Assembly: GCF_026151205.1 (NCBI RefSeq)
Contig: NC_087078.1
Coordinates: forward strand, 8,262,675 to 8,326,674
Source of the DNA: Bolinopsis microptera
Lineage: Eukaryota > Ctenophora > Tentaculata > Lobata > Bolinopsidae
Reading direction: 5' to 3'
DNA length: 64,000 bases
This document shows positions 6,818 to 62,996 of this stretch, piece after piece. A program made the position numbers and the translations under genes. Position 1 is the stretch's first letter, and every line of letters starts with the position of its first letter. Under the pieces are notes generated by a model. It worked only from the letters and a program-made list of their open reading frames with translations, was not told the origin of the DNA and did no database searches.

Positions 6818-6825
6818 GAATAACC

Positions 6826-7578: not shown

Positions 7579-7639
7579 TAGTTATACATCAATCACAATT
7601 GTGATTGATGTATAACTAGTCGCGAAATTTCGCGACTAG
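7579..7639. repeat. Two overlapping perfect palindromes
   Basis: Positions 7579-7618 form a 40-bp perfect palindrome centred on CACAATTGTG. Positions 7616-7639 form a second, 24-bp one (CTAGTCGCGAAA / TTTCGCGACTAG). They share the three bases CTA. Both could extrude as cruciforms. No transposon ends or gene were recognised around them. Confidence 0.85.
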
Positions 7640-35837: not shown

Positions 35838-38628
<2,791 letters not shown>

Positions 38629-38751: not shown

Positions 38752-38870
38752 GTAAGTTTAAAGTTACGGATTGGTTTGGTTGGATATGTTTAACTCTTTG
38801 TTTAGACTATGAATCGAAATATGAACCCAATTTACCGCTGTGTTGCTTTTCCTCTTTTTCATGATGCCAG
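38752..38870 (+). other. Candidate 5'-UTR intron of the tyrosinase gene
   Basis: A strong donor GTAAGT at 38752 and a pyrimidine-rich acceptor ending ATGATGCCAG at 38870 bracket 119 bases. The acceptor falls exactly one base before the ATG, so the whole coding sequence sits in the second exon. Confidence 0.6.
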
Positions 38871-40145
38871 ATGCACCACTGCATCATGGTTTGTCTTCTC
38901 ATTTTAGGTTTATCCGTGGGTTTAGTAATCTCCCAAATTACACCTGAGTCTTGGATTGACTCGGATAGCACACCATCGAGCATTTCTCTAGACAGTGAAA
39001 AGGTTAAGGCTTTCGGCCTTCGCCCCTCGAACAACTTCAGATGTAAAAGAAACACTATAACACGGAAATGTAGATTAAAATGCACATGTATAAAAGGAAG
39101 AAGATATTGCTGCAGACAGAGAAAAGATTGGGATGCCCTGACTCATGATGAAAAGACAAGATTTCTCAATGCTGTGTACAATATTGGAACGGGAAGAGCT
39201 GGCTGGCGGCTGAGAAATAACTGGGTGAGACTGCTTTACATCCACGAACTGTACTGGGTGGAAGGAATCCATGACAGAGTACAGTTTTACCCTTGGCACA
39301 GGATATACTTGCTGAAGATTGAGAACCTCCTCAGGCAAGTAGATTGCCGACTGACTGTGCCGTATTGGGACTGGACCAAGAACGTTGCCCGGTGGTGGGA
39401 AAGCTCCATTTTCAACTGGAGATACTTTGGTTCCAATTTGAATTACAATGCCAGAACTGGTGAACAACAACTAACAACTGAAGATCAATGTCCAAGCAAT
39501 GGTTACTTTTCGCCACAATATGGCTATCAAGATCTGGAAGGTCAGTGCTTGGTAAGACAATTCACTTACAACGTTTTTCCTGCCAGTTATAAGAGAATTC
39601 AGAATATTCTGAGCTGGAAAAATGCCCTGCGATCTGAAGCCGACTTGAGGCATGAACATGGAATTCCTCATTACATAGTCGGTGGAGAAAAAACAGGCCT
39701 CTTCTTTACCGAAAGAGCCGCAGAAGATCCCTTATTCTGGATTCATCATTCTAACGTTGACTACCAATGGTATCAACGACAGACCAGATATTTGGAGACA
39801 ATATTCGAACCTTGGAAGGAAAGAGGGAACATTGGTCAATCACTGACAGCCTTCCCAGAAACCGTGGGACAAGCCTTGAACCCTTTTAAGCTTGGAAGAC
39901 TCAAAACATGTGTGGAGTATGTTGAATACGATGATAGATATGAAGACTGGTTGAGAGATAAAAGGACGCGAGCGAACAAGGTAGGGAGTTTGAGTTCTGG
40001 GACGCACGGGTACTCTACTGCTTCTAAAATGGAATGTATGAAAAGCCAACATAGTTTTCCAGCTCTGATTTTCACACTATTCAAGACATCACCCGCTGAA
40101 AAGAAAAATTTCTTGAGGAATAGAAACCAAGATGGAGATTGTTGA
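38871..40145 (+). CDS. Secreted tyrosinase (type-3 copper oxidase), single coding exon
   Basis: 424 codons. A signal peptide (residues 1-22, hydrophobic core MVCLLILGLSVGLVIS) is followed by a short linker and a Cys-rich segment (CRLKCTC...YCC, 67-81). CuA ligands are H125, H134 and H143 in IHELYW...FYPWHR. CuB ligands are H263 and H267 in HGIPHYIVGG plus the HH pair at 292-293 in DPLFWIHHSNVD. All six copper positions appear intact, so o-diphenol/monophenol oxidation in the extracellular space or a secretory granule is expected; such enzymes serve pigmentation, cuticle or adhesive cross-linking. No C-terminal membrane anchor is visible. The start is set by the signal peptide and the splice acceptor directly before it. 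Lack of introns in the coding part contrasts with the neighbouring genes and could reflect retroposition. Confidence 0.94.
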   Translation: MHHCIMVCLLILGLSVGLVISQITPESWIDSDSTPSSISLDSEKVKAFGLRPSNNFRCKRNTITRKCRLKCTCIKGRRYCCRQRKDWDALTHDEKTRFLNAVYNIGTGRAGWRLRNNWVRLLYIHELYWVEGIHDRVQFYPWHRIYLLKIENLLRQVDCRLTVPYWDWTKNVARWWESSIFNWRYFGSNLNYNARTGEQQLTTEDQCPSNGYFSPQYGYQDLEGQCLVRQFTYNVFPASYKRIQNILSWKNALRSEADLRHEHGIPHYIVGGEKTGLFFTERAAEDPLFWIHHSNVDYQWYQRQTRYLETIFEPWKERGNIGQSLTAFPETVGQALNPFKLGRLKTCVEYVEYDDRYEDWLRDKRTRANKVGSLSSGTHGYSTASKMECMKSQHSFPALIFTLFKTSPAEKKNFLRNRNQDGDC

Positions 40146-40430
40146 ACGTGAAGGAGACATTTGATATTGATTTAAAGACTGAAAGACTCTAAAAATTTTG
40201 TTGCTTATTTCAATTTTTATCAATTTTTAAGAAGCATATTAAATATTATTGCCTTTAAAATGCAAATTGTAAGGCTGAACTCGGGAAGAAAATAATTTTA
40301 AAAGTGGCATCAAATCATGAACATGATTATGATTTTATGTTAGAGCTGATTTACCCGATCATCATTAAAGATACCGTGCATTATTATCTTTAAATGAATA
40401 CACAAAATTTCAGGCAAAGTCAACTACAGA

Positions 40431-41515
40431 ATGTCAGCTTCAGAACCGCTGATTACAGACCCTAAAGTACCAGGAGATGAAAGGAAAATCTTCCTTAAAG
40501 AAGTGTGTCGAGATTGGAAGTTTCATAGGGATGACGTCTTGAAGGAGGTCTTCGAGATGGTCGACAAGGATGGAGACGAAAAACTAACTGGTAGGCTTAA
40601 CAGATAAAACGTTTAGGAGTCGGTTATTTTACTTAATTTAAAGAGTTGGCCATCTTGCTTAATAAAAGTTTGTTAAATTAGTTGTCTCACAGAATTTTAA
40701 ATTTCTGTACATGAAATTGCACACTGACACAGTAAAACTGATTAATACCGTGGCGTAATTTTTCAGAAAAAGAGATGGGACAGGCTCTAAGGTTTTTGGG
40801 TTTGAATCCAACAGAACCTCAAATCCGGGAGATGATTATTGAACAGAATACGCCGAAAGGAAAGCTCACATACAAACAGTTCGTTGATTCCCTCGAAACG
40901 GTAAAATTAAAAAATGATTTAATGCTATCTCTACCACACAATATGTATTTTCCGTGTTATATAAATCATAATATTTATACAAAATTCACGGTTTAATTGA
41001 CAGCCAGTATGAATATCCTATCAAAAGTCAGAAGTTTTGATATTTGATTGTATAATTTCAGGCAATTGGCTCCTGGAGCGTTTATGAAGACCTGATGTTT
41101 GCGTTTAGCGTGTTTGATCCCACTGAGACAGGCTACGCAAATAGAACCGTGCTGAAAGATCACCTGACCATGATAGGGGATCCACTAGACGAGGACGAGG
41201 CAGAGGAATGGCTCTCCCTTGTTCAGGTGAACGAAAAAAAGCTCCTATTAGAAACACTGTTTGATCTTTGTACAGATACTTGTAAAACGTTTTGGTGCAG
41301 TCTCGCCACAAAGATTGAATTTATCCATCTGCGCTGGCACCCATTAAATCAGTGTCTCAACTCTTATAATGCCATGCTGTTGCTAACGATCTTATATGTT
41401 GATATAGCAAACTTCCCAGTCGAACAGCAAAGGCGACATCAACTACCAGAGTCTGATAAAGCGAGTGCTGCACGATGAAGGCTGGCTGGAGGACCAGACT
41501 AAGACTGACAAGTGA
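40431..41515 (+). CDS. Calmodulin/myosin-light-chain-type EF-hand protein, 184 aa
   Basis: Exons 40431-40590, 40767-40900, 41062-41226, 41420-41515; all junctions are GT-AG and phase-matched. The layout is four EF-hands in two lobes. Only the first loop is canonical (DKDGDEKLTEKE). The second (NTPKGKLTYKQF), third (DPTETGYANRTV) and fourth (SNSKGDINYQSL) lack key acidic ligands, as is common in myosin essential light chains and other non-switching relatives. The phrase ALRFLGLNPTEPQIREM resembles the equivalent helix of essential light chains. It could be a light chain of an unconventional myosin or a calmodulin-like adaptor. An acceptor at 40412-40413 shortly before the ATG implies a 5'-UTR exon upstream, in the 270-bp gap after the tyrosinase stop or further up. 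Confidence 0.9.
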
Positions 41516-42414: not shown

Positions 42415-45400
42415 TTAATTTGTTTTATAGTATATCATGATATCATAAGTCTTATGCAAGGAAGGGGTGGTGTTCATATCACTGTCCTCAAGAATGCTCA
42501 GAGAAGATTCCCTCCAGTTTTCAGCATCGTAGCTGTAGCTTATACCAGATAACCTGTTCCCGTTAATTGTGATGTGGGACACTTTTCCGCGGAGTCCTCC
42601 GGCTGCTATCATGATTTGGTTCCAAGTCCTAGAAAGTGATACAGCTTCAAAACAATATATTGTGACCTTTATAATGCTTGAGTTTATTACCCTTAGTGAG
42701 GGTGCTCTTTACTTGGTTTTGTTCGCAATTGTTGTACAACTACAATGTTGCTATGGGTGCAGACTGCAGAGGCTAATTCTTTTGTTTTGATTATTCATGG
42801 GGAAATTTGGGAATTTTGAGTTCGACGCCCCTAACCTTCTAATGTCAACATGTCTTAGTAGGATCACGGTATGTTCAGTAATATAATTTACTAACCGTTC
42901 ATCTGATGAACTTTTTGCTAGAGCATCCCCAGTAGGTTGAATGGTGATTCTGACTCCTTCAGAAATGCTGTCCACACTTACAGCCACTTGAAGGAGCAAA
43001 TCATCTTGTTCTCTCAGATAGTATGTCTCGTAAATTGTTTCGGATGTTTCCGTCCCGCTTAGAAATATCGTTATTTCAACGTATTCTAGCCTGCAAAAAT
43101 TTTTTATTGCTTTTGATATCCTTTTTTTGATTTATTCTGTGCTACTACTCTGATTTACAAAGAATCACAGATAAGACTCGGGCATTAAGTTTTGGACTAT
43201 ATACTTATATACAGTTCACAAATTTTCCCCCTCGGGGTCATAATTTAACATACATAAATTACCACAAATTGCCACATATTTTGCATGGGCTGATTGCACT
43301 GCCATCCAATTACAGCGTCATATTATTCAAAATTGCGAAACACTAATTAGCCACCACCCTTTGGCCTTTTGAACTTGAGATTGCGCAAAATCATAATAGT
43401 TATTTCAAAATTAAGTGACAAAAAGGATCTCTCGTTGATGTTTGAGGTTCCACCCGAAATTTCATCGTAATACGTTTAATTTTGTTGAAACTGTTACTAA
43501 TACTTGAAAGTTGCATAAAATAACCATTTACTGTCAATGGCTTCTTGCAAAACGAGACAATTTGCTTTTGAATTTAATATTCTTTGACTGCTTAACCATG
43601 CTTTTAAATACCTCATCATATCATCGTAATTTTGAGTTCGACTTCGACGACCCTTAACCTTCTAATGTCATAACCATGTAGCACAGCATTATTGATCATA
43701 ATCAATTATAAATGTATATTCATTTTCTTACTTCACAGTCTCGATTGGGTTGCCACTCATCTTGTCAATATCAGAGAGTCTGCTTGTCATGAGGACACTC
43801 CCTCCTTTTATAAAATAGAGTTGTGAGGGGTCCTCGTTCGAGTCTATCGTTACTTTACCTGATGAAACAGGAGTATCGTTATATTTGAATTTAAGGTAGG
43901 TACAACTACAATATATTAGCTGCTTTTATGGGTGGAATGAGTACATGCGAGACCTGAACTGATGAACAGTCGTCATTTCTTGAAATATTTCTTGGTATTT
44001 ATTATATCTGACATGAATTTGAGTGGGTATATTCGACTGCGGATAGCGTTCATGCAGTTAAAAGTTTCGCCCAACGTAGCTTTGGCGCTTCACAAATTCC
44101 TCATAGCATAATCATGGCTGGCAACTTGCTTTAAACTGGCTTCAGGATCATGACTACGTAGCTATATAATACTCTTTATAATGAGACGGCACGTCACAAG
44201 CTAGTTAGCCAATATTCAATAATATTAAAATGTCAAATTTAATTGGGTTACTCAATGTTTAACTTTAAGACGTTAATTTATGTTCAATTTTTGATTTGAT
44301 TAAAGTTATATAATATTAATATTAACTTTATCTCATATTGCTTGTTAGAAAGGTGAGGCGAGGGAGGCATGCACCTCAATTCTAAATACTAGAGTTTTTG
44401 TGTGATTGATTCTGTGACGCTTGTCTTTAAGAGATCTTCGTAATAATCATTTAAATCCTGAGATCAGTTTTTAACTGAAATGAGACAGCTATAACGATTC
44501 AGCTGTTTACAGCGTTTTGTCACATCAGTTTAACCGTTCATAACATCGCTGATTAAAGGTTGTCGCACCTTTGAAAAGCAGAAATTAAAGATGAACGAAA
44601 GCAACCGATTACCTTTTTGTGGAACAACTCTCTGGTAACTGTTTTGGTTTCGTCTGTACCAGGTGTCATTCTGAGATGTCGGTAAATAAACGCTCGTCTC
44701 ACTCCCCAACAAGGCTCCCGCAGCCACGACAATTTTATCGCCCACCATGAACTGTAGTCCGTGATCTGATCCAGCTAATAGAACATCGCCAGGGAAGTTG
44801 AAGGACATCTCTCGGATCACGGGGAGTCCGTTGGTGAGACTGGATTTGTGGAGAGCAGTTAGCCATTCCGGGTAGAGATGGTATTTTGTCTTGATAAACT
44901 CCTTTATCTCCGCGAGTGCAGCGCTGTTCAGTTTTGACAGTGCAGATTCGTCGCCTGTGCGATAAGGGTTCATTTTGGGGATAAGAAAGCAAAAATGTAT
45001 ATTTCTTATCAAAGGTTGATCATTAATCATAGATTTTTATAAGTTAATATTGAATAAAGGTTTGGACAAAAGATATCATTTTCATTTTATTCATTCACCA
45101 AGCCCGATCTTTCATTATACTTGAATCTACTTAATTGTTTATGGTGTCGTCTGCACTCATTTTAATAACGTACGATTAGAAACCTTAATACAATTCCCAA
45201 GAAACCTTAAAATTCTTGAGTACCTGAGGTCAACAATAGGAATCCATTAAGCTTGTGGTAATTTAATATCATTTCATTGTCAGTCACACCAGGGGCTAGT
45301 CTTGTAGTCGCCAGTAGTCCTACATTTCCATACCAAATAATCATCGGTATCAACTGCCAGGGAAAGTGTAAACTTTTATAAAATTACAAGACTAATTTAA

Positions 45401-48400
45401 CGATTTAGTTTTGAAATGCTGTTAATTTAGTTGGTGTGTTGGCACCAGGTGGTACTGGTACATCACAAACAAGACAAATGATGTGGGGCAATGTGGGGTG
45501 CCTCCCTTACCTGGAGAAGGTCCTCTCTTGTGGCAATCTCGATATACTTTGCAGTATACTGTCCTGCTCCCAAGCTGACACTATCGCTGATCTGAATAAA
45601 ACTATCCCTATCCATCGACCGATATTGGTGCAAAATCTTAGCCTGCCTGCGATATTAAATACTTTTTACGTCCTCATTTTTTATAATGTGAGTATTTCAA
45701 ATGGAAATTTCTTGTGTACCATTAGAGTTCATAGAATAAACTTACAAGGTACCGTGTCGGTTGTGAATCCGTCTATGTACCGCATTCAGACCTTCGAGAT
45801 CTTTTCCGGTGTGACCTTTGCCGGTGTGGATGTAATCTAGGCAAATTGTACCTGGAACAAAATGAAATAAATCTAATATATTATTATGATCCACACATTA
45901 TTGTAGATCTAAACTTGCGTTACTACGCGAAATTTGTGCTAACAATTGCGGTAGGCCTTCTGAATACTAACATCGTAATCTTAATATTAATAATATTGTG
46001 TTAAGTTTGATGAATCTGGGAAAAAACAACTGTGTTAAATTTCACACTATACCAATTAAATGTAGTTGGATTAGGTATAGAGCTCTTTGATTAAATAAGC
46101 CAAAGAGTTCAATAACTCACGCTAATGATACCACAGAATATATTTAATTCATAAAATATCGCGCATCATCTTAGTTAACTTAACCGTTTTCGTTTTGTAT
46201 CATTAATTTATCTAAGCGGTATTGTTTTCTTTGAATATATTTGTTACACTTACAGAGCTGTGCATAGATATTCAAGGAGTATTTATGATTAAAAAAAGCG
46301 TTTGATCATATTGCATCGGAAGCTGTAAAATAAAAGTTCACCGGTAAGCCCGATAAAGACGTGATGTTTACAAAATAATTACTTGTGTTTAACTTACGAA
46401 CCATTGAAAAGAGGTTTATCTGAGAGGCTGAGAAAGGGTGAATTGTTGATAACGTTATCTGTGCAATTGAGATCCGCAAAGTTCAGAGGATAGTTGTGTC
46501 GTAAGTTGTGTCCTGCTCGGTTCGCAAGATACATACTGTCATTTCTGGAAAACATATTTTTTAGATTTTCTCGGGAGGTTGCTTATTGTTAACGCCACTC
46601 CTGAATCACATAATAAATTTGTCCAAAAACTAATTTAAAGCAAGCAAACTTAATGACATGTTTTAATATTTCATTGTTTATCTTGTATGATAATCCCTCT
46701 GAAAGTACTCACTGGTTATCATAATCTGTCATTGGGTGGGTGTAGTCGACGTAAGCACGAAAAGAACCAGGCATCTCCGAGTGGGATAAGGTCCCCATAA
46801 AGTAATCTCCCTCTGCTGTCCGGATCGGAGGGTCATTAGAATTTAATCCCAGCTGCACGAGCGGATCAACGTATCTGTAAATTGGTGCAAATTAGCACTT
46901 CATCAGTTAGCACTTCATCATGTGAAATACAAGTCGTCAGATATCGTTTAGATAGTAAGTAAACATGCGCGAACAATCGTGAATAGTTCAAGTTGACGTA
47001 CGTTATTACGGATTTAATTTGCTGCGAATCGTCGGGAACATCGATGAAATTATCGAGGACGAGCACATCAATTTTGAATTGGGTACTGTTTATGGCTTCG
47101 TTAGGATCGTGGTGAACTAGGGTGCCTAGACTCCACCAAGGGGTTCTGTTCGGAAGGCCTGCGGGTTAATTGGGTTGTTTGTTTGTTGGATAGCTGCTGA
47201 TTTAGAGTAAATAGAGTATAGGAATCATATCCACTTCTTCGAGTTAACGAATTAGTTCAGTAGATCTCGTTACCTCTACCTAAGCCCTTATTTCCTGATA
47301 AAATATAAGTCAGCGGAGCAAGTTTACCGAAAGTCTGAACGAACTGTGTTGCCACATCCTTCCTTGATGGTCCCACGAAAATTAACATTTCGAAATCCCC
47401 TCCCAACTGAGTGATATCAACAACTGTAGCACTGCCTTTTCTCGCACCGAAACTTATTTTCATCGGTGCAGGACTGCCCATAGCTACTCCGAACACTTGA
47501 GGGTTTGCTTTTCCGACTATTCCATAGAAGTACGGTAAGTTTGAGTTGTCTTCGCTATTCCATATCTGAATTAGGTTATTTTTAGATTTTGATATTGTTT
47601 GCTACAGGCAAAAGTTGAATAGTTGATGGGCTCGACATGTTTTATCAAATACAAAATTAATAAATTTATTCGTGATCACAGTTCTAGCAAGGACAATATA
47701 TTTCGTCAGATTCTTTAATTTGATAGCATCTCAATTCTAATCCGAAGTTCAACTGAAATGAAAAAGCATCATGCTCCTTTCAATCAACAAGAAATAGAGG
47801 ATTCTGGTTGTCTGAAATTTAGTATAATACCATTAAATTGTCGCCAGACGCCATCTTATTCCCGTTGGAAAAGATCTCAGCCGCTCCGAAGACGCCAGTG
47901 AATTGGACAAGGTTATCACTGACAATCAAAGGATGCTCTCGGGTATCCAGGATAACGTTGTCTTTTCCGTCTGAAAAGTGTTAATTTTGAAAAAAATTGT
48001 TACACAGAAAGTCGCTGAAAAGGTTGAATTGAGTCAAATTGTTTAGTTGAAATTGTTGCAGCTCTTTTCAGTGGGTTACGACAACTGTAATTAGATATCT
48101 GCCAAATGTAACTTTTCATCATTTTTCTAATAGTTTAGAATTGATTACAGTTATAATAGATATTATCGATCATTTATGTTTCGTTATTGTTCTAAGTGCA
48201 CGTTCCTTGTTGTTGGACGTTGGTAGATAAGGATCGAATGTAAGATATGAACAATATTAGAACACAGTCGCCATTAGAACTAATGGTGAAGTTTATTGTT
48301 ACACCCCCCCCCCCCCACCTCGCTCCTTCACTCTATCTATAAAGATGATAATGCTTGGGGTTGTAATCGATACCAGCTGTTCTAGTGCATACATAATATA

Positions 48401-51400
48401 AAGAGCCATGGGGTTAAGCGCCGTTATGTTTAGTAAGTTTGCACATGGTACCAACCTAACTTATATCACCGGGGCCTGGTGTGCTCTCCACCGATTATAT
48501 AGCGATTAAATAAGTAGTAGATGAAATGGAACATCCACCATGGTCCCTAAATACCAAAAGTCCTGCTTCAGTTACATCATTCCGTTCTGGGGTGTTACCG
48601 CAAGTGTTCTGGCACTTTCAATTACGGACGGTAATTCTAGATCAGCTCTCCTGGTGTGAGGCTCAATTTCAGAGAGTTGCTTCATCATAGTGGGATCACA
48701 TCTAAATTGTTACGAGCTGTTCCGCGGATATTTCATTAATCCAGGATTTGTTTATTGTTATTACTGTTGATTGTCTCAGTTACGATGATGGCGCAAGTAA
48801 TGAAACATCATCGTCATATCAAGCAAACTGCAGCAGTGGTGAGGATATGTGCATTGTGCCGCCCCATTTTAATCTCGATGGCACATATTCACAAAGTAAT
48901 TGCCTTGTTCGGTACAATTTAATATCGTCTGGACTGATGGTGCCTGACCAGTACCAGGTGGTTCTCCTCTCTCTCTCACCCTCTCATTGTAGTTACACAA
49001 CAAGCTCCTCTCTCACCCTCTCATTGTAGTTACACAACAAGCTCACACAGCCTCATATCATGGTGCTAAACGTGATCAACTTGTTAATCTCCCAACTAGA
49101 TCAACGTGCTCATCACCCAACTAGATCAACTTGTTAATCTCCAGAACAGTCTTTCACTTTTCAGTTTTCAGTGTTTAAATTAGCAGATGCCTGCGTAAGT
49201 AATGGCATGCTTTATTACTCGGACACAAGACCATTTCTTTGCCACGTGCCAGTGATTAACCAATCAGCTACAGCGATCAGTAATCATACCTGGCTAATTT
49301 AAAGTAGCTGTCACGTTCTGACACGAAATTGCCCAGGAATTAATTCCGTGTCAAAACAAAGTGGCTTCGCCTTGAAAACTGCAGTTTATCCAGGGATCTC
49401 ACGCTTTCTGGGTATTTTTGGGTATTTCCGACAGTCGACTTCTTTTAAGAATGTTATTAAGTATTGAACCATTTTCTCGTCATGGAACCATTATCTGGCA
49501 TCGTCCATAATTTATATTATTCATAATTCATATTATTATGCAGTATTTATCATGGGTTTTCATCAGCTTATATTTTGCAATACCTAATCGCAATAATACA
49601 CAATGATGTTGTAAGTTACCCACGTAGACTTAGATTCGTGTTGTGCTACTCAGCGGAAGATTTTGCTGACCGCACAATATTCTCATCGGCTCATATATCA
49701 TAGGCTACTCGGATTGGATAATATGATGGATGCTATGACGAATTTCTGAAGAGTAACATTCTCAACTGCAAAGTTTCCACCCAGTGGTCTTATCTCTGTG
49801 GGGTGTTGGCAGTGATCCAATTTCTCAGTCACTCCCGTGCTTAGAGCGGATCCCAGGTCACTGATCAGGTCGCATTTATATTGTTAGCTCACTCTTCTCA
49901 ATATAGTTCGTAACATATACATATTATTTTTCATTGTACATCTAAGCATAATGTAGTAAATTTAAAGCGTACCCCTAAGAGCCAGTTGTTTTACAATTTT
50001 GTTCGTCTAATTAAATTTTTTTAAAAGTTAGTTCGTGTATATTTATCTATATAAATATTAGATAGCGAAATTTGGGTCAGATCAAAGGACAAATTGGCAA
50101 GGCACGGATTACCTGAGGACCTCATGCTCCGTTTTACACACTGTTCCGCAAGATTAGGCAAATAGATAGGCTGGCAAGGAACAGAGATCATTTTTAATCG
50201 AAGACGCTTTGTTATCATTTTGTTTGTTATGTTGATTTATTTACAGGGTGTTCACGAAACATTGGTACGGTTTTAAACTTGTGTAAATTAGTTTATGAAA
50301 GAGCAACCAGCTATATTTAGCTATTATTTTCGTTGTAAATCGGTAACAATTTTGTTACAGCAGTCCAGATATCGAATATTTAACATAGCTCTCGAAATTT
50401 CGTATTCATTTAGCTGCAAGGCTCTTTAAATATGCTATTGCCAAAGCCTACTTTGAGAATGATCTCAGCTCATTTCCCACCAAAAGGTACCTTGTTTACG
50501 AGTTGTTGTTTGTTGTTTTTGTTGTTGTTCTACTTGTAAATTCGTGTCTTTCTTTTTGGAACATTTCATCTATGCTGACACAAATGCACATGGTCTGTGA
50601 AGGCCCGTGGCTGCTCGAACGGTTTATCAGCTGGAACTTGTTATTCACATTTATAATTCAAAAACAATTTAGCTTTGTCAACACCATCTTAAAACCTTGG
50701 GAAATGTTTCAATGTCAATTGTAACTATTTCCTGACGCGGTAATATTCCCAATAATCACTCAGCTCGACAGTCTTTACCTGCTAATGCTATGAGTATTAC
50801 ATTCTCGCTAGGCAGTATTTATCTTTTAATGTTCAAATCCAAAGTTCTGTATAGTCTGTTACTTGACAGTTGAAACTCTTTGTAGTGGAAATGGGGAGAG
50901 TGGTTTCGAAATGCTTTTAAATCCAATTTCTAGAATTTTGCCATGTAATGTGTTTGAGCGCCAGTTTTACAAGAGTGGTTTTAAATGGCAAAGGGACCCT
51001 AATTATCAGCTTATTGTTTAACTGCTTCACTATTTGCACACTTCACACTCTATTATACATCCTGCCTTCTATTGTTTATCTACTTGAGGTATCATTGTTC
51101 GGGGCTGAGTTTATCACCCAACCAGTTAGTTGTTTAGTAGTTTAGTTGCCAGTTTGGTTGTCGTATGTACTCGTACTTATACTAGAGGTTCGATTCTAAG
51201 TCGGTTACTGGTTCAGAATTTAATAGAAACATTTACAGTAGTATTGATTTTAATTATTCGGAAAACTTTTATTCATAATCGAATTAATCCACATTCAACA
51301 TTAATTCAAGCAAATGCTAGTTTAGGTATTTGTTTTCATATCACTAACTTTTTTTATCTAAACGTATTTTTAAGTATGCCAATTCAGTATTTTCACTGAT

Positions 51401-54400
51401 TTTTCATTCGGACGCTGAAGCCGCTTTAAGTCAGTAAATGGAATCTGCAGTATTATAAACATTTAAGAGCTCTCTCACCATTACTAATCCTACTGACGAT
51501 GATGTAGAAGGGGTCTCCCTGTCCCGCTGTAGTTAGCTTAAAATTACTATTCGTCAGATCCCTCTTGCTGGGTGGTCCAGTCTCTTCGTCCGAGTCGTCC
51601 GAGTGGCTTGTTGATACCTGAGATAGTGTGATAGCTTCCATTTATAGGCATATGTAGTTTTCGATTAAGAGTTGCGTTTGATATTTTAAACAACCAATCG
51701 AATTTAAAAATGGATGTTATGGTAAAAACAGTTGCCTCAGCCGGCCTAATCAGAAACCCATGTCTGACCCGGTTATACTTACGAGCGTATTACAAGACAT
51801 TTAACTATACCATACAACCGCAAATGACTTGCAACTCTGTGCGGGAGGCCCCCCAGAATCATGATAATCAGATCCAACTTTGAGGAATATCATATCCGAT
51901 AGTAATGCCACCTTGAGGAGGCCTTTGTACTATATTAATCGGACTCTTAGGTTAAGATAGCTTATCTCTCCAATAACATGGTTGTTTACAGAGATATGTT
52001 GTTGAGATATCTAGTTTTAATCAGAGTATTACTAGTTCTCAGCCTCTCCTAAACCCTCACTCTCCTAAACTCATCCCTCTCAATCTAATCATTTGCAAAC
52101 TCATTCATTGCACGCACAGTTATCAGGCAGTTATCGTTTACTTTCTTTGTAAGGTATATAACACTGTCTTTCTTGCTGTCTTAATTTCTTGTGAATTTCT
52201 GGTATTTATGTTGCTTTGTTAGCCGTACCAATTATTGATAGACACGACACTAGTTGGCCTGATTGGGAAGACATGCTTGTGTGCACGCTATCGGGTAGTA
52301 TTTTGCTCTCATGCTAGCTGTGAGACAGCTATAAAGTTTTCCGGAAATTATCATAAATATTTATGGGAAAGCTGCGCGCTCTATAACCAATCTCCAAATT
52401 GTCAAATCTCAAACTGGGCCCGCTTACTTTAATTTGCTTCCAAGTAATGCCGTTTTTATAGTGCTTATATACGACGGATTGTATCCCTTTTCCAGGATTA
52501 TTTATCCAGGTCTAATTAATGTGGGAGAGGAGACAGGAGCTACAAAAGAGCAGACAAGCACCAGCATAATAAGTAATCATCTAAAAAGGTAGTTCCCAGA
52601 ATCTCAACATTTACAGATTACTGACCTTTATTCGTAAAGTGCTCCCGCCTTCGTTGGTTATCAGCACGTAAAGAGTCTCCGGAAGAATTGCTAAGGGGTT
52701 ACTCTTCACTTCTTCCTCGTCTCCACTTGTCTCCTCGTCTCCACCTGTCTCTTCGTCTCCACTTGTTGTATCAAGAGTAGAGTTCAAATAGTCTGCTTCA
52801 CTGATGGGGATTCAGAATTCTAGTAATCATGAATTTTGGGACGAATAATTACAGTTATTCAGTGACGGTTTAGTCATCATTTATAATCTTTAGATACAGA
52901 ATCAAAGATAAGCTTGACAGTAGCAAACACTGTGAGAGAATGGCCACGTTGTCAGTTAATCATTTTGTGAGCAGTCGACTCTGGCCAGATGAATCAAACC
53001 GAACTCAATAATCATGATAATGACCGGAATCTCACTTTGAAATTGGCACAGTTCATTGTTTCCAGAGTTTATTAATATTACAGTTCTGCTATCCACCCTA
53101 GCCTCTCTCTGATCTTCGGAAACAAGCGATGCTTGTTTGGCCGAAGTATTAGTAAGGCTACTCCTTAATCTTATTCAATATTTTCAAAACTGTATGTTTT
53201 GGAAATATTTACGTTGGCCTTATTTACATTGGCCTTACGTGGAACCTCCGGTTACAAGTCTTTAAAACTTCAATCATAGTGTTAGCAATTTTAATTTTCT
53301 GTAGTTTCAAATAATCTGTCCTTTGGCAGTATAAAACTACCCATAAATTTATAGTGGTCTATAAACAGTTGTTATGAACAATGTTGACCGCCAGGCTTCT
53401 CGGATGCAACTTAAATAAATTACCAATTATTTTAACCAACTTACGAAGAAACAGCATCTCTTTTATGCAGCGATGATTTATCAGCCAGTTTAAGAGTTAT
53501 CCGCACTGTTGTGCTCGTCGTGTTCTTGCTCTCTACCGAGTACGAACTCTTCTTAGGATAGACGCACCTGAAACCGTGGTTCTATCAAGGAAATTTGGAA
53601 CAACCACGTACAATCCCCGAACAACCCCGGACCCATCAGTTATTGATATTGCATAGGTTTCAACATAGCAAGGGTGTTGCTATTGAGGTTTAATAAAAGT
53701 ATGAAGCAGCAGGGACAAAAGGAAATCGCGGCATGTACGGAATCGCGATTTTTCCCATTATTTGCGAAAAATTGTATGTATAGTTTAATATACCGCGAAA
53801 TGTAATTCGCGGTATCGCGATTTTTGGCCAAAATAACCGCGAAATCCTTTTGTCCCTGTGAAGCAGGGTGTGTGGTTATTGGCTAAGATGGCAAGTACGT
53901 ACGGTACGTACCTTTAACTTAGCTGTACGGTACGTACTTAATAAAGTAGGCTGAAAGGTACAAATCCAGTGGATAGCAATGGACAAGCGTAGATTAAGGT
54001 TGCGACTTGAGCTAGCTGAAAAGCTGGTGTTCGTATACTGCAACAAAAGGATGAAGCTTTGAGTTTAACGATAATTACAAGTAGTAGTAGTGTAGTACCG
54101 GTTAATTTGTGTGTTTATTTTCGACTTCTATAGTTCTGTCTCAAAAATTATGATGATAATACTAATCAAAAATTGCAAGTAATTCACTGAAGTTGATTCT
54201 AAAAATTTGAAAAAAAAATTGTACCTTACATTGCCTGTACCGTACGTACCTTTAAAAGTAGCTGTACCGTACGTACTTAAAGCCCTGTACCGTACGTACT
54301 TTCCATCTAAGGTTATTGGTTGAATAAAAAAGAACATAAAAGGTCCTGTCCCTCAATATTACCCGCATATGATGTCAGAAGTAAAAGGAGCATGTAACTA

Positions 54401-57400
54401 AAACTACAGTCCTCAGTAGTTTGTTCTCTAAATTACTGCCGCCTATTAATGTTTGAGACCTGTCTCTTTTGTCCCAGCTGACATGGGAACCTTTGTTCAG
54501 GATAGTAAGTTTACAGTATAAATATTAACTCAGTATAGACATTTTCAGTGTCAGAGTCGTGGTCGTTAGTACATTAAATATTTCATATTTGACGTATATA
54601 AGCGCCCGAGCATTTAGCGGTTTAGTACTTTATAGTAAGTGTTGGAATCGAATATTGATCAGCGCAGAATGATCAGCATGTAATGAATATGATTGATGAC
54701 TTGCATCACATTTTATGTGTCCTGAGCACTTGTCATTAGCACTTTTCATAAGTTCTTGTTGCAATATGAAGGTGAGTACCTACAAAATAATAAATAAAAG
54801 AGATTATAAATCTCCCCTTTGTTTCCCAAATAACAACTAAATTGAAAATAGAGGATATTCCTTTTTCAAATTATTAAGTTAAGGTTGCATTGATTGTAGG
54901 AGTTATAAGTAGAAATAATACCTTTTAGAAGTGGAGCCATCAGAATTTTCCGTACTCCTAAACTCGCATCCTGACACTTCACACATTCCCTGGGTAAGTA
55001 CTTAGTACTAAGCTGATGCTTGTAAAAATAAGGAGACAGTAAACTCTAATTTACAAAATTTCTTTTGATTTGAGCATCCATGACCAATATTTGAAAGGTT
55101 ATTTAAATTTACGACCGTTAGTATTGATGGTGTTGATACCTTGGACGGGTTCAGTCCTGCCAAAGTGCAGGTTATCATGTCAGCTGTATCAGGGAGTGGT
55201 TCTGACTCTGTTGGGTCCTCGTCATTTACCTGTTAAGTTTTGATTTTTAAGAGTATGTCCATTATACCCCAGTTTAATTCAAAGTTCAGATTTTGGGTTG
55301 GGATCAGGTCAGTTTTAAAACTTTAAATTAGTGATTGGAAAGAGTAAGAATAATGTTCGGACATTTTTGAGTTTGGTTGGGGATCAAACGTCATGAGATC
55401 TTAAACAGAGTATTCTAGGTTGGAATTAATTTTCGCCGTCTTCATCATTGTATAATAGGGTCGCGTGTATTGATTAACACTTAACCTTATGTACCGTAGA
55501 ATGGGGGAACTTCGCCATGTTTTACAGTTATTTCATGTTATTTAGAAAATACGACAGGAGTACTTGAAAAAGTTTATAGCTCATATGAACAGGATTGGTA
55601 AAGCAAATGTTTTCGTATGAACCACATCAGCCAGGCATAAATAGTCAGCTAGATTGGTGCCACTGAAATCAGGGCGAAGTTACCCTGCAATATGGGGTAA
55701 CTTCGCCATTCTGAAACTATACCATATTCGGTGCTAAGCACCATACCACTCGAAACTCAATTATATTTCCTTGATATACCTGCCAATTTTACTTATCTAG
55801 CTCTAGCCTGCGTGTTACAATGGGCAATTTGGTCGCCGGGGTAACATCGCCATGCTGCGGGTAACATCGCCGGGATGAAGTAGAAATGTAGTCGAACTTC
55901 GCCAATACACGTGCGTGACTTTGCCAGCCGCGCGCGAATTTCGCGCCAAACTTCGCCGAACAGATGGGATCAGAAGAGGGTAACTTCGCCACACACAAAT
56001 TTGAAAACTTTATAATATCAGTTGTGTGCATCATGGCTAACTAAATTTGCCCTTAAATGAACAGGACATATGCTAATGATGTCACACAGAATTAATTAAG
56101 GATATAATTGTAAAATATGGGAAATATGCAAGCAGGAAATTTTAACCACTTTATAGCAATATTTCATGTTGCCTGAGTTTAATTGACATAGTAAACGTTT
56201 ATTTTTGAATAGGAATACCTTCATAACCATTTGTTCAACACAATACTATACAAAAACTCGATCTCCTAACAATTCAAAACAGTAAAATGATTATTTGAAA
56301 AATAGTGGCGAAGTTCCCCGACACGGCGATTTTACCCCAATCTACGGTATGTTGTTGATGAGGTAGACTCAGCATAAAAGATAAACCGTTCATGAACAGA
56401 ACAGTTAATTATATTAATTTATTCAGTTCATGAACGGTTTATCTTTTATACTGAGTCTACCTCATCAAGCTCAACAATCTACATAAGTTGCACACTCTCA
56501 CTTCCTTAGATTACGACTATTCCATGTTGTGCATTATTTACTATGTATTTATAAAATGTGTATAATAGCCACTCTAAAGCACAGACGTATATAGCTTTTT
56601 TATTGTTTGTACCACTCCAATTTGACACACACCGTCTCAGATTATAAGTTCACAACCTACTCTAGTCGCTCAAGGTTGCAAATATCAGACTGTCGATATC
56701 CGAGACTAATGCGAGTCGATCATTCGCTGAGTTTTGTCGCGACCACATCGTTTAACTCTTTAACCCCATGCATCATGACCAACGCTTTTTAAATTATAGT
56801 CATGCAGTCATAGAACTTTGAGAAGGGGGATGATTATATTGAGTTGATCTAATATCAAGTTTTCAGGAGTTGATGATGATTCTTATCGATTCGAAATATC
56901 TCATTTTCAATGACTGCCATAGTCAGTATTGATTGATTTTTGAACTATCCCACAAATAACTTTAGTAATATAACCGTAGTGTTTGCAAAGTAATAGCGAG
57001 TACATACTGTACCTTGAAATTGAAATTACTTTTCCGAAGTCGACTCACGTACATGATGATGACGTCATCACTTAGTCACGTGACCTGATGAGTAGGTCAC
57101 AAGATGATCACATGCCTCATCAGAGATACGAGGTACAGAAGGTAACACAACATTTCCCTTTCTTCAAATTTAACTACACCTATTTTCAACAGGGGTGTTG
57201 TTAAGTTTTGTTACATTTCATAAGTGATAAGTTCAGCCCGGTCCAGAGGGCGTGTTCGAAACTTATTTATTTTGTAAACTCTTTTCATTATACTTATTAA
57301 ACTTATTCTTAAACCTAAAGTTATTTTAACAAGCTCATAATTATCACCAAAAATTACACTTATTAATAGTTTAAAGTCTTTGATGACTTGCGATCACAAT

Positions 57401-60400
57401 GAACATAATATAAATTGTGCAATAGCCAATAATATCACATACTATTCGAACTGTCGTAGACTAATCCTTATACGATCTGAGCGATGTTTTTAATGCGGCA
57501 TCACACAGGAGAGGAAGAAGTCGATTAAAATCTTATAATAGTACATATTTTGTTTGGGCGTTCTTTTTACTAATATTAGTCTTATATAATTCAAGAAATC
57601 GATCTACGAACTTTAGCATTTAATTTTATTATAACTTTGAGCTTTAATTAGGCCGGCTCTAATCCATAAAAACTTCCATAAAAACAAAGATTGTAGCCCA
57701 ATTTTGTCAGCTACTCGATTCTCAACATGCTGTTAGCATGACAAAGCTAGGTAAAATGAGCCAACCATTTTCTTACAGTTACGTTGGCTCATGACAGATT
57801 TGTCATTTGATTATTTTAAGAAGCTTTTCTTTCATCATTGACCAAGTAAAAGCAGTGATTACAAGAATTTATTGCAAATCGGCCCATGATCTCTCGTAAG
57901 ATTAGCCTTAAAATATGTTAGCTTTAAATATTACGAGCCGGTAGAGGAATGGCGCAGCAGCTGCAGTAATCTACCAGGCCCCGGTCGGCGAGTGAAATTT
58001 ATCAAAAGAAGAAGTTCACAGCTCACTACGCATGATGAGCACATTGCCACGAGGCCGTTTATCTTGCCAACTTCCAGCAAAACGGTTGTGATTATGGAGA
58101 TAATATCCACTACTGAACGCTGGTTCAGGCCATCAAGTCTCAACTTTAACTATGATTAATTTTACCTTGCAGTTATAGAGGTATTAGACTAATAATGGTG
58201 ATAAATCTCAGGGGTGATAAATCTCAGGGGCAAAGAAATAAATTATCCTAATGATGTGCACAGTTTATATAAAGTTAAATATAATATATTTAATATAATA
58301 TATTTAATATAATATATTTATATAATATATATATATGGTTACATTACTTTACTTAAATATAAAGTTTAATGACTCTTATCGTTTTATAAATTCCGCGCAC
58401 GCGGCATGAGTCCTAATTCTATAATAGTCAAGGGATCAATGGTTTGGAATACTGATTGTTAGAATATTCCGTTATCACAGATTGTACTTTGCGAAACAAA
58501 ATCTTTACCGAACCAACTCTATAATTCCCTATGGAAAACGTTTCGAAAAGTTTCTTTTCGTCATCATAGAATCAGAACTAAGGTAATGAAATTGCCAAAA
58601 CTTCTACTCGCTCAATATTATTTACTAAATAATAAATATATATTATACAATAACCATAGTGAAGATAGCTTACTAAGCACCATTTTCTTTACTTAACAAA
58701 CTAAGCACCATTTTCTTTCCTTAACACAACCATTTCTGAATCCTCAAAATTCCTTTGAGCTGCTAAGATAATTTCTATTATGTGTGTCAACGTCATATTT
58801 AATTACAATTATTTGAGGACTGAAACGGTAATTTACTACGGACAATACAATATGTCCTCTGTCAATAATCAACAGTCACTGATAATTTGTTGTAGCTGAA
58901 CAATTTAAGCAATTACCATCAGTTACAAATTCGTTTCTCCCTTGTTTTGTCAACATTGTTGTCTAGTAGGGCACCGTTTAAACTTTAAAACAACATTATT
59001 CAACCTCGTCATCTATCTATTTAACAGAACCCCTCGATTCTCACCAGGGTGGTGATTATCAGGGTTGTGAAAATAGGGATCATACTTATGTGATCTAGCT
59101 AGCTTTGTAGTCACACTGTAGTGCCAGTAATTAAAGGCCGCAAAGTAGAAACGGGACCTAAATGAGTGAATAATGATATATCGTTTAAACATTCAATATT
59201 TTCAGTTCATTGCATTTCATTACAATATTTATATATTTTTGTTGCAACATATGCCAGCATCCACAGGGGGCTTTCATGGAAACATTATCAATCACAAAGT
59301 TACGATGCGATTTTGCAATTACGATTTTGCTACACGAGCCTTGAAAATCCTTTTTGCGTTTAATTACTTAGGGCAGAAATTTTATTATATCGACTTATGA
59401 TCTGGTGACTTTTCTAGAGACCATACCTTACGAGACATATTTAAAAGGTACGAAATGCGGTGGCTTTCGGAAAAAAATCCCATATTTACGTTCCCAAATC
59501 ATTTAGTTCACCGGAATTATGTCGAATAGTATGGCTTTGATTGAATTCTCTGCCTCACCAGAGCACTTAAAAGCAATTTAATTTTAAAGGATTTCTTCGA
59601 TCAAATTAATCAAACAGGCAACGCATGTCTATGTACTAAGTGCACGTGTACAGACCTTTAATGTGCGTTGTCTTCATTTGTCACGGAGTTTTCGAGTCCT
59701 AATTACTCACATTGATGCCGGGTTTCTTGACCACTAGCAGCACCACACACAGTACTATTACAAGTAGGATCACCACTGCTGAGATTGCTCCTCCTATTAT
59801 GAAAACTCTTCGTCTTCTCTGTCGTTGTATTTCCGCCGCGTCTTGTGGCTGAAGAGTAGATTTTTTAATTTGGGTAAATGCATCTTCGTTTTTAATGATA
59901 CTGTTATGTCAATGATGATTATTAACATTTTATTCACTAGTCTAGGTTACCATCCATGTTTTTTCGCTATTTTTGGCATCGAAGATCCTAATTTCTCGCA
60001 TACTCATAGATGGCGAGAACGGCAATGACCGCCACTACGATTATATTTATATAATCGTTTATTTATATAATCGTATGTTTATATAATCGTATATTTATAT
60101 AATCGTAAAAAAGTAGCTCCTTCTAACTGGTAAAGTGTTTCGCAACAAGATCCCCTCAACTAACCGACCTACTTACGCACAATATAATCGTCCGACCACT
60201 CTAAAATATAAACACCTGTACACACGCGAGAGCGGCCTGTTTAATGGACTGCTCAGCTGCACTAAGCCGGTTATCTCCTCAACCACTTTGACAATAACTT
60301 TAAGGCTGATGTTGCATGCGGTCGATACGACTATTGTTGATGGTCCATGCGTGTCGGGGATGTTGTGCAGGAGTGTGATATTAAAGATTTAAAGCTGTTA

Positions 60401-61112
60401 AATGGTCATTTGCTAAAGTGACAAGTTGTGTCCCTAGTCTGGGTAGCCTAGCAGTTTAGATAGCTTTTTATTGGCATCACTGATGTTATGTGTGTAAATC
60501 ATTTATTGCATTTAAATGGCATTTTATCTGCGCTTTATGCTCGTCTGGGTTAATAACAGATTATAGACTTATTTCTGCACTGCAATGATTAAAGGCCACC
60601 TATGATCTATAAATTACACTAAATTACAGTATCATACAGTGATGCTGCATCACTGATGCAATATTTAAACGTCTGATCTTTAGCTGCTAATCCTTTGTCA
60701 GTGATAAATAAACTTTCTGCGCTGCCCAATATGTGGCATTATTATTACTGTTATTTTTATGGAGCAAACTTGCCACCTAGGTCAAGGATCATTATATGTA
60801 TACTACTGGATGTTTAGGCAATGTGCTAGGATATGGGACATACCCAACCACTCCCTCTATCCTGATTCCTGAAGTGGTGTTAACTAATTAACTGGCATAC
60901 TCTTCTTCATTAATTGGCGTTATGCTATTTTTGGTATTTCCTAGTTTCCACGGGGCCTTATCTTTTATCCTCTCAGTGTTATTACATATGTGTACCTGAT
61001 CAGAGGTGGGTAGAACAACGTAATCCTTCCCTTTGTTTGGGAACCTGACTCTATCAGACAGTTTATCTTCTCCTGTCTCCTCCTCCTGCTCCTCTTCTTT
61101 TAGACGTTCCAT
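42415..61112 (-). CDS. Type II membrane GH31-family protein, predicted pseudoenzyme, 997 aa, 19 exons
   Basis: Exons in coding order (minus strand): 61112-60996, 59848-59711, 55229-55140, 54989-54922, 53567-53445, 52800-52626, 51617-51479, 47970-47831, 47565-47274, 47158-47002, 46874-46713, 46544-46402, 45851-45746, 45646-45511, 45353-45224, 44954-44613, 43858-43732, 43090-42896, 42628-42415. All 18 junctions are GT-AG and keep frame. Order: acidic cytoplasmic tail, RQRRRR, one membrane helix (54-79), trefoil-like Cys segment (106-142), then a GH31 body with landmarks QGDPFYIIVSRISN, GPSRKDVATQF, TICLDYI, LTNGLPVIREMSFNFPGD and YFIKGGSVLM. In active GH31 enzymes the nucleophile lies in DGLWIDMNE; here the segment is DSMYLANRA with Ala541. 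The acid/base segment HWLGDN reads KYIEIA. A non-catalytic surface role, for example receptor or chaperone-like, is inferred. Confidence 0.9.
45511..46544 (-). CDS. Exons 12-14: degenerated GH31 active-site region
   Basis: Exon 12 (46544-46402) encodes DSMYLANRAGHN where active relatives have DGLWIDMNEPSN: the nucleophile Asp is Ala541 and the following MNE is NRA. Exon 13 (45851-45746) encodes the well-kept TICLDYIHTG and DLEGLNAVHRRI. Exon 14 (45646-45511) has DSFIQISDSVSLGAGQYTAKYIEIATRED where relatives read [24 protein letters not shown]; the acid/base Asp aligns with Ile654. Around the active site the family fold is still traceable while catalytic residues are gone, which argues for loss of catalysis rather than random decay. 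Confidence 0.82.
48300..48318. repeat. Poly-C tract in a GH31-gene intron
   Basis: An uninterrupted C run of about 14 bases on +, that is a G run on the sense strand of the surrounding minus-strand gene. Confidence 0.8.
48969..49043. repeat. 37-bp tandem duplication
   Basis: Two direct copies of a unit containing CTCTCTCACCCTCTCATTGT followed by AGTTACACAACAAGCTC, in the 3.5-kb intron between exons 7 and 8 of the GH31-like gene. The rest of that intron (47971-51478) shows no other feature I can support. Confidence 0.85.
52626..52800 (-). CDS. GH31-like exon 6 with in-frame 18-bp acidic repeat
   Basis: Three tandem units encode (GDEETS/G)n between residues about 190 and 210, inside the N-terminal beta-sandwich. 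The following exon adds a second acidic stretch (HSDDSDEETGPP). The underlying DNA repeat (CTCGTCTCCACTTGTCTC-type on the + strand, about 52724-52768) keeps frame because its period is divisible by 3. Such an acidic surface loop is not a standard feature of GH31 enzymes. Confidence 0.8.
53445..55229 (-). CDS. Trefoil-like module exons (3-5) of the GH31-like gene
   Basis: Exons 55229-55140, 54989-54922 and 53567-53445 encode MITCTLAGLNPSK, GMCEVSGCEFRSTEN and CVYPKKSSYSV. This is the P-type trefoil layout that precedes the N-terminal beta-sandwich of membrane GH31 enzymes, but with GCEF in place of the usual GCCW and only four cysteines instead of six, so at most two of the three disulfides can form. 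Two transposons sit in the intron between exons 4 and 5. Confidence 0.75.
53710..53858. mobile_element. 149-bp hAT-type MITE with perfect 8-bp TSD
   Basis: The left end CAGGGACAAAAGGAAATCGC and the inverted right end GCGAAATCCTTTTGTCCCTG match apart from a small slip. TGAAGCAG is duplicated exactly on both sides (53702-53709 and 53859-53866). An 8-bp duplication and CAGGG-type termini are the hAT signature. The interior is made of GCGATTTTT / CGCGGTATCGCG words and encodes nothing. Confidence 0.92.
53883..54310. mobile_element. 428-bp MITE with GTACGTACGGTAC ends and 9-bp TSD
   Basis: GGTTATTGG flanks both ends directly (53874-53882 and 54311-54319). Termini CTAAGATGGCAAGTACGTAC and the right-end inverse (GTACGTACTTTCCATCTAA) are imperfect inverted repeats. 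Just inside, the word GTACGTACGGTAC or its inverse occurs twice on the left and three times on the right. No coding frame. The element lies 16 bp from the hAT MITE, in the same intron of the GH31-like gene. Confidence 0.85.
55494..56347. mobile_element. 854-bp MITE with TA target duplication and internal GGTAACTTCGCC words
   Basis: Left end CCGTAGAATGGGGGAACTTC and right end CCCCAATCTACGG are inverted, flanked by TA (55492-55493, 56348-56349). The motif GGGTAACTTCGCCA or close variants (GTAACATCGCC, CGAACTTCGCC) is repeated many times inside in both orientations. No transposase frame is seen, so Tc1/mariner-type mobilisation in trans is inferred. Confidence 0.82.
56357..56466. repeat. Hairpin with 41-bp arms
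   Basis: Arms 56357-56397 and 56426-56466 are inverted copies with one mismatch, starting GATGAGGTAGACTCAGCATA. It begins about 8 bp after the TA-flanked MITE. It could be an independent mini-foldback element or a fragment of one into which the MITE inserted. Confidence 0.85.
56467..59710. other. Remainder of GH31-like intron 2
   Basis: No exon or gene supported. It contains a duplicated GGTGATAAATCTCAGGGG near 58197-58232 and an AATATAATATATTT tandem at about 58280-58335. A 70-codon minus frame at 57931-58143 does not fit the gene's phases and has no motif. Confidence 0.5.
59711..59848 (-). CDS. Membrane-anchor exon of the GH31-like gene
   Basis: Encodes residues 40-85: PQDAAEIQRQRRRR, then a 26-residue hydrophobic helix starting VFIIGGAISAVV, then KKPGIN. 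Basic residues before the helix and the absence of an N-terminal signal peptide predict type II topology (C-terminal bulk outside or luminal), the arrangement of sucrase-isomaltase and maltase-glucoamylase. Confidence 0.88.
60035..60110. repeat. AT-rich tandem repeat, about 4 copies of 17-19 bp
   Basis: Units of TTTATATAATCGTATAT type in the first intron of the GH31-like gene. Confidence 0.75.
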
Positions 61113-61255: not shown

Positions 61256-62996
61256 TCCAGGGGTGTAGGAAGCGGGGGGGCAGGGGGGGCCATCGCCCCC
61301 CCATGAAATCTGGGCAAGTGGCCAAAAAGGGCCAACTTTTTAATTTAGGTTTCTAAACATTTTTGGAAAAACAATTTTCCCGAAAATTTTCCAAGTCAAA
61401 AAATGTTTAACTCAAAAATTTTCTAAGTCAAAAATTTTCTAAGTTTTCTTGGAAACTACTTTTGTTCATGTTTCATGCTACCCTGATCATTATGAGTCAA
61501 ACATATTTTTTTCGGTTTTCGAAGTTCGATATACGAATTTGGACTCGATGGTTCCCCTTTGTAATGCGATCTCGGAAGGCAGGCCTCCCCTTCGCAATAC
61601 GAGCTCATAAGCGGGAGCTCTGCTTTCAGAGGTACGTATCGAGAATGACTCGGACCGAAAATTTTCTAAGTCAAAAATTTTTAAAGTTTTCTTGGAAACT
61701 ACTTTTGTTCATGTTTCATGCTACCCTGATCATTATGAGCCAACAATATTTTTTTCGGTTTTCGAGGTTCGATATACGAATTTGGACTCGAGGGTTCCCC
61801 TTTGTAATGGGATCTCGGAAGGCTGGCCTCCCCTTCGCAATACGAGATCGGAAGCGGGAGCTCTGCTTTCAGAGGTACGTATCGAGAATGACTCGGACCG
61901 AAAATTTTCTAAGTCAAAAATTTTTAAAGTTTTCTTGGAAACTACTTTTGTTCATGTTTCATGCTACCCTGATCATTATGAGCCAACAATATTTTTTTCG
62001 GTTTTCGAGGTTCGATATACGAATTTGGACTCGAGGGTTCCCCTTTGTAATGGGATCTCGGAAGGCTGGCCTCCCCTTCGCAATACGAGATCGGAAGCGG
62101 GAGCTCTGCTTTCAGAGGTACGTATCGAGAATGACTCGGACCGAAAATTTTCTAAGTCAAAAATTTTTAAAGTTTTCTTGGAAACTACTTTTGTTCATGT
62201 TTCATGCTACCCTGATCATTATGAGCCAACAATATTTTTTTCGGTTTTCGAGGTTCGATATACGAATTTGGACTCGAGGGTTCCCCTTTGTAATGGGATC
62301 TCGGAAGGCTGGCCTCCCCTTCGCAATACGAGATCGGAAGCGGGAGCTCTGCTTTCAGAGGTACGTATCGAGAATGACTCGGACCGAAAATTTTCTAAGT
62401 CAAAAATTTTTAAAGTTTTCTTGGAAACTACTTTTGTTCATGTTTCATGCTACCCTGATCATTATGAGCCAACAATATTTTTTTCGGTTTTCGAGGTTCG
62501 ATATACGAATTTGGACTCGAGGGTTCCCCTTTGTAATGGGATCTCGGAAGGCTGGCCTCCCCTTCGCAATACGATATCGGAAGCGGGAGCTAAGCTTTCA
62601 GAGGTACGTTTCGAGAATGACTTGGACCGAAAATTTTCGAAGTCAAAAATTTTCAAAGTTTTCTTGGAAACTACTTTTGTTGCTATACTACCCTGATCAT
62701 TCTGAGCCGAAAATATTTTTTTCGGTTTTTTTGAAGTACCTACATTTGGAAGGTTGTGGAAGTGACACTGATTGGTTTCATATACTAATTATAGAAAACG
62801 TGATATTTGGTCCTCAGATTTAAAGGAAAATGCGCAATATGACGTGGAGAACTGAAAAAAATCGCGATTTGTCGTGAGGCCCCCGAAATTAAGGCTTTGG
62901 TGCGAAGCGCCAAAAAATTTATGCTGTGGCGCGAAGCGCCAAAAAATATTTAGAATTTGGCCCCCTCATGAAGAAAATCATTCCTACACCCCTGGA
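61256..62996. mobile_element. hAT-like non-autonomous element carrying a 243-bp tandem array
   Basis: The left end TCCAGGGGTGTAGGAA is exactly inverted at the right end TTCCTACACCCCTGGA. Flanking octamers are AAAGAGAG and AGAGAGAG, a 7/8 match expected of an aged target duplication. CAGGGGTG termini are hAT-like. Nearly all of the interior is a tandem array (see 61444-62690). Short GGTGCGAAGCGCC and GGCGCGAAGCGCC hairpins lie near the right end. No transposase is encoded. Confidence 0.75.
61444..62690 (+). repeat. 243-bp satellite-like tandem array, about 5 copies
   Basis: A GTTTTCTTGGAAACTACTTT landmark recurs at about 61441, 61684, 61927, 62170, 62413 and 62656, an exact 243-bp period. The middle units are virtually identical; the first and last diverge. 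Because 243 is 81 codons, two + strand frames stay open (61462-62823 and 61692-62696) and give repetitive translations with no known domain. I treat these as by-products of the repeat. Confidence 0.93.

Follow-up and report, generated by a model that had tools for sequence, protein, structure and literature searches.

What a glycosidase fold does after catalysis has ended is a question raised by one gene in a 64,000-nt stretch of the genome of the ctenophore Bolinopsis microptera (C7:8262675-8326674, hereafter the window), whose reading frame is open and whose catalytic pocket seems almost wholly lost. Running from 61112 to 42415 on the minus strand, the gene was rebuilt from splice sites and phase as 19 exons, 2988 nt in all, encoding 995 amino acids plus the stop codon. 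The initial annotation of the window had proposed 19 in-frame exons; their start, stop and coordinates were reproduced in full, and the length of 997 residues given there is corrected to 995. We find that the product is probably a type II single-pass pseudoenzyme of glycoside hydrolase family 31 (GH31), with a sucrase-isomaltase-type ectodomain fold that would be incapable of glycoside hydrolysis.

Descent from GH31 and the active site

Several comparisons place the protein in GH31. A Pfam search with the whole protein matched the C-terminal GH31 family PF21365 over residues 746-840 at 33.9 bits (cut-off 24.4), and no GH13 family was among the matches at E up to 1. Against PDB, phmmer gave a single match at E up to 0.001, the GH31 alpha-glucosidase 3w37 (E 2e-7). 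A home-made GH31 profile, in which 80 prokaryotic GH31 proteins were combined with five other GH31 pieces, scored 54.3 bits on the protein, the best of 500 shuffles reaching 2.3, and hhalign against five GH31 pieces returned a probability of 99.5%. The alignment query of contigs retained the best 80 of at least 326 relatives; a contig search with one paralogue as query found none. On these comparisons the protein is GH31 by descent and highly diverged. Over residues 427-700 it is 20-27% identical to the four domains compared, and four other GH31 domain pairs share 44-52%.

To locate the active site, we compared the protein with five GH31 domains: C2, C7b, GAA, and the N- and C-terminal domains of MGAM (MGAM N and MGAM C, which belong to one human protein). 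In the best-spaced alignment, YDGIWIDMNEPASF becomes RAGHNLRHNYPLNF, the nucleophile Asp being replaced by Arg547 and Gly, Asn, Pro and Phe being held in common. Arg547 stands 11 residues from the next Cys and 24 from the FPDF position, three short on each side of the commonest spacing; among the enzymes the distance from nucleophile to next Cys is 14 (C2, MGAM N and GAA), 15 (MGAM C) or 18 (C7b), and that from FPDF to nucleophile is 27 in four of the five domains and 34 in MGAM C. We prefer Arg547 because its spacing deviates least overall and because the Gly, Asn, Pro and Phe are common to the motif. The initial annotation had read DGLWIDMNE as DSMYLANRA, with an Ala at the nucleophile position; the loss of the Asp stands, but the register does not, as this residue, Ala539, has spacings of 19 and 16, worse than those of Arg547. 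MAFFT gave a third register, with Asn566 at the nucleophile position, and an Asp is present in none of the three.

At the acid/base site, both hhalign and the profile place the GD pair in a two-residue gap, whereas the PDB phmmer alignment sets the Asp against Glu651. As first described, KYIEIA stands in place of HWLGDN and ATTRLAPGV in place of GADICGF, in the rebuilt exons 14 and 15, respectively. Elsewhere, the protein retains 27 of the 83 columns that are invariant in the five domains (among them Cys559, Cys583, His609 and Gly613), and the altered positions include Trp to Met512, Asp to Arg547, Met to His548, Arg to Asp636, Trp to Tyr649, Phe to Val683 and His to Asp705, together with one deleted Asp; we take these to be substrate contacts in maltase-glucoamylase.

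A position-specific scan of the protein detected no strand-4, acid/base or GADICGF motif, the best scores being negative (member minima 42.7, 51.7 and 44.7), and detected the structural HNxYG motif at residues 603-616 with a score of 19.1 (member minimum 27.9). As a control, the three catalytic motifs were recovered in all four other GH31 loci of the genome (C2, C7:760k, C12 and C6); C2 and C7:760k belonged to the training set, and C12 and C6, which lay outside it, scored 10.6 to 33.0. When all six frames of the window were scanned, none of the three motifs scored above zero there either, so that no hidden exon within it restores the site. The alignment registers, the acid/base gap or Glu651, and the motif scan agree with the original proposal that both catalytic Asp residues are gone, and the scan finds no catalytic motif elsewhere in the protein. 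These comparisons support the view that the nucleophile, the acid/base and nearly all other placeable pocket residues have been lost.

Gene model and protein anatomy

Exon 1 (60996-61112; all exons are on the minus strand) carries the ATG and encodes residues 1-39, within an acidic cytoplasmic tail containing YVVL (Tyr31). The tail is about 53 residues long and acidic at its start; its YVVL is weak as a signal, because a YxxPhi motif arises in 19% of shuffled tails. Exon 2 (59711-59848) encodes RQRRRR and, behind it, the sole strong hydrophobic segment (around residues 54-79), with a mean hydropathy of 3.4 over 21 residues; no further 21-residue segment with a hydropathy above 1.6 starts past residue 90. 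From the distribution of charge, the protein is predicted to be type II, with an N-terminal signal anchor. Ten NxS/T sequons are present, all beyond the membrane helix.

The ectodomain begins with a stalk in exon 3 (55140-55229), which contains Cys106, the first of its cysteines and about 26 residues beyond the membrane segment. A trefoil-like segment follows in exon 4 (54922-54989; Cys118 and Cys123) and ends in exon 5 (53445-53567; Cys139); the cysteines at 106, 118, 123 and 139 could presumably fit two of the three trefoil disulphides. By inspection we assign the next three exons to a presumed N-terminal domain: exon 6 (52626-52800) has an acidic GDEET-rich insertion, exon 7 (51479-51617) a second acidic stretch, and exon 8 (47831-47970) the segment VILDTREHPLIVSDNLVQF of a presumed GH31 sandwich. 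The acidic insertions comprise 19 Asp/Glu within residues 185-260. The sandwich ends in exon 9 (47280-47565; profile match over residues 339-412), and the barrel begins in exon 10 (47002-47158) and continues in exon 11 (46713-46874), where VDP is retained and WPG has become MPG. Exon 12 (46402-46544) holds the nucleophile segment with Arg547 at the Asp position and closes on an atypical donor (ATG/gttcgt), and exon 13 (45746-45851) retains the structural motifs TICLDY and HNRHG. The acid/base segment, QYTAKYI--EIATREDL, lies in exon 14 (45511-45646), and the ATTRLAPGV segment in exon 15 (45224-45353). Exon 16 (44613-44954) encodes the final barrel helices and the bulk of the PF21365 match, which ends in exon 17 (43732-43858). 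Exon 18 (42896-43090), with a second atypical donor (ACG/gttagt), and exon 19 (42415-42628), with the stop codon, encode a presumed distal C-terminal domain, again assigned by inspection.

All 18 introns end in AG. Position +3 of the donors is A, G or C in 16 of the 18 (C in the exon 6 donor, gtcagt) and T in those of exons 12 and 18. For exons 18 and 19 there is an alternative pair, 42892 with 42666, which has a consensus donor and is likewise in frame. An alternative exon 13 starting from 45772 would permit a consensus donor for exon 12 but would lose TICLDY, a segment with a close likeness in the enzymes; it was rejected by inspection. A candidate exon at 49740-49860 was dropped, exon 7 being already in phase with exon 8.

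The order of anchor, trefoil-like segment, sandwich, barrel and C-terminal part is that of sucrase-isomaltase, maltase-glucoamylase and lysosomal alpha-glucosidase, with which the 27 shared columns also agree. Unlike these enzymes, the protein is without nucleophile, acid/base and GADICGF, and it has an acidic tail and acidic insertions.

Weighing the explanations

Several observations count against reading the gene as a kept GH31 pseudoenzyme. The barrel family PF01055, which the initial annotation had named for a check, did not appear among the matches of the full-length protein up to an E of 1; residues 281-749 alone (469 residues) gave a match with E 0.00037 and 20.4 bits, under the cut-off of 23.5. 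Six-frame genome searches with PF01055 and PF21365 failed to report the gene. The Pfam search gave no trefoil match for the protein. The sucrase-isomaltase-type architecture originally proposed holds for the anchor and for the homology of the sandwich end, barrel and C-terminal part, the trefoil being a candidate. One Asp of the DID segment, Asp443, is retained and may contact the substrate, and codon preference failed to tell the reading frame from the introns. Finally, the model needs T at +3 in two of its 18 donors, and four nucleotides downstream of exon 12 there is a consensus gtaagt, the use of which would shift the frame.

These donors bear on an explanation that we consider unlikely, namely that a GH31 paralogue was silenced not long ago and has only begun to decay, two of its donors being damaged and a stop codon not yet acquired. 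For each of the two T+3 donors, a gtaa site follows 4 nt downstream, and the nearest paralogue found, C7:760k, is itself split over two overlapping frames. The branch leading to the protein is also very long, 6.1 changes per column in a 16-row tree that flags its placement as unsure and was not used for kinship. The open frame argues the other way. Frame 0 has no internal stop in 995 codons, compared with 72 and 71 stops in frames +1 and +2; the chance of so many open codons at the intron stop rate is about 10^-33, a figure that overstates the case because the exons were picked as open. In 1000 simulated neutral decays of the coding sequence, the first stop appeared after a median of 16 substitutions and a maximum of 149, and 95% had gained one by 70 substitutions, or 0.023 per site. 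The divergence of the protein from the enzymes far exceeds this limit, and therefore most of it arose under a kept frame rather than neutrally. GC content is 0.454 in the coding sequence and 0.355 in the introns. Old pseudogene decay is unlikely. Thus, the earlier statement that this is not simple pseudogene decay holds against old decay, but recent decay stays under consideration because two splice donors are atypical. A T+3 donor is less damning in this gene because a neighbouring ion-channel gene (34097-34960, plus strand) fits one too: its first exon seems to end at such a donor, at 34402, and the PF00520 match rises from 45 bits for the first exon alone to a continuous 67.9 bits when 34402 is joined to 34527. 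We take this channel to be of the voltage-gated potassium type, from its motifs.

It is highly improbable that the protein is an active enzyme with an altered mechanism or register, in which, for example, Asp556 (FADLN) or Glu651 (KYIEIA) would be catalytic. FADLN resembles WIDMN, with identical Asp and Asn, the PDB alignment sets Glu651 against the acid/base Asp, and the C6 paralogue has a Glu there as well (HFIKEN). Asp556 was nevertheless rejected as nucleophile on its spacing: in FADLNC it is just two residues from Cys559, compared with 14-18 in the five GH31 domains, and it lies 33 residues past YVDY, compared with 27 in four of the five and 34 in one. Further pocket residues are altered (Trp, Arg, His and GADICGF), and the motif scan detects no catalytic motif. 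It is scarcely credible that the gene model is wrong and that another set of exons restores an ordinary GH31 enzyme. The exons were assembled by hand from genomic sequence alone; against this, the six frames of the window are without a strand-4, acid/base or GADICGF motif, and the exons flanking the site show homology and keep phase.

In the pseudoenzyme that we favour, the GH31 ectodomain would have lost catalysis along with nucleophile, acid/base and most of the pocket, and its folded form may persist as a surface for ligand binding or scaffolding. The likeliest role would be that of a receptor, chaperone or partner subunit at the cell surface or in the secretory pathway, and the acidic tail, with its possible YVVL signal, could perhaps direct trafficking.

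Glycosidase relatives known or predicted to be inactive, and other GH31 genes in the genome

Type II single-pass proteins with an inactive glycosidase-like ectodomain are familiar from SLC3A2/4F2hc and SLC3A1/rBAT, and the window protein would share both features. The SLC3 proteins have a disulphide cysteine near the membrane segment. Unlike SLC3A2, the window protein belongs to GH31 rather than GH13, and it has no membrane-proximal cysteine, so the parallel with 4F2hc drawn at the outset holds for topology but fails for fold family and cysteine. An SLC3A2-like role would be speculative. In the fuller version of this idea, which we regard as very unlikely, an ancient GH31 lineage of animals would have been co-opted for a cell-surface heavy chain or receptor without catalysis, the GH31 equivalent of SLC3A2, and kept throughout the ctenophores. 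Conservation in further ctenophores, if it were found, would suggest that the GH31 fold took on a non-enzymatic use early.

A dead membrane-bound GH31 protein had been put forward as new, but the kind is already known, because Diptera have published examples of single-pass GH31 proteins that are predicted to lack activity. Clade IV of the dipteran NET37 (MYORG-like) proteins is described as being without catalytic residues, as are some dipteran lysosomal alpha-glucosidases, and Lutzomyia NET37 1 and 2 as seemingly devoid of hydrolytic activity; NET37 is predicted to cross the membrane once, through an N-terminal segment, with its GH31 domain facing outward (PMC8063059). In these proteins the described changes take the form of substitutions: Pro replaces the proton donor and, in one lysosomal protein, Gln replaces both Asp residues (PMC8063059). 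The NET37 clade IV and window proteins are thus alike as GH31 members predicted to be without catalytic residues. Compared with the changes described there, the window protein differs in having most of its pocket altered, in its sucrase-isomaltase-type layout and in its ctenophore origin, a lineage distant from the published cases. MYORG was not returned by the PDB search at E up to 0.001, the sole check of kinship.

Within the genome searched (264.65 Mb, 232 contigs), a protein search yielded 20 rows, comprising the gene's own 19 exons and the GH31 gene at C7:760k (37% over residues 713-843; 38% identity within 766-845). No second close copy was detected in this search (17 candidates scored), which an equally diverged copy could escape, just as the window gene itself escaped the PF01055 and PF21365 genome searches. 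Those searches reported four other GH31 loci, on C2, C7 (760k), C12 and C6. The C2 and C7:760k loci have apparently intact catalytic motifs, and the C12 locus presumably corresponds to endoplasmic reticulum glucosidase II, which it resembles. The C7 gene (760 kb; L020 2995-5669) otherwise looks intact, but its barrel and C-terminal part are read in two frames that overlap, which could reflect an assembly error, a small intron or a damaged gene. The C6 locus (2.44 Mb; L023 ~3000-8700) is a second degenerate GH31 gene. Like the window gene, this gene, at C6:2.443 Mb, has an altered acid/base motif (HFIKEN), along with GANICGY; unlike the window gene, it still has the nucleophile Asp (FIDENEP), and PF01055 recognizes it.

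Immediately upstream of the window gene, at 61415-62729, there is a 243-bp tandem repeat of 5.4 copies with 97% matches. Further features of the window include, on the plus strand, a tyrosinase in a single open frame (38865-40145; PF00264, E 3e-24) and a weak EF-hand match (40398-40607; PF00036, 18.2 bits, under the cut-off of 25.4), as well as a very long GA repeat at 35813-36457 that reads as open frames of RE and LS repeats. Elsewhere in the genome, clusters of ionotropic glutamate receptor genes with long open frames are present on C12, C3, C6 and C8. Mnemiopsis ligand-binding pieces match the genome at 72-75% at best; the receptor frames and these matches suggest a ctenophore, and an identity of 75% makes Mnemiopsis itself an unlikely source. 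Of two receptor frames compared with PDB, one (L107) has Mnemiopsis ML032222a as its top match, and the other (L111) has entries for the kainate receptor GRIK2 at the top, with ML032222a lower.

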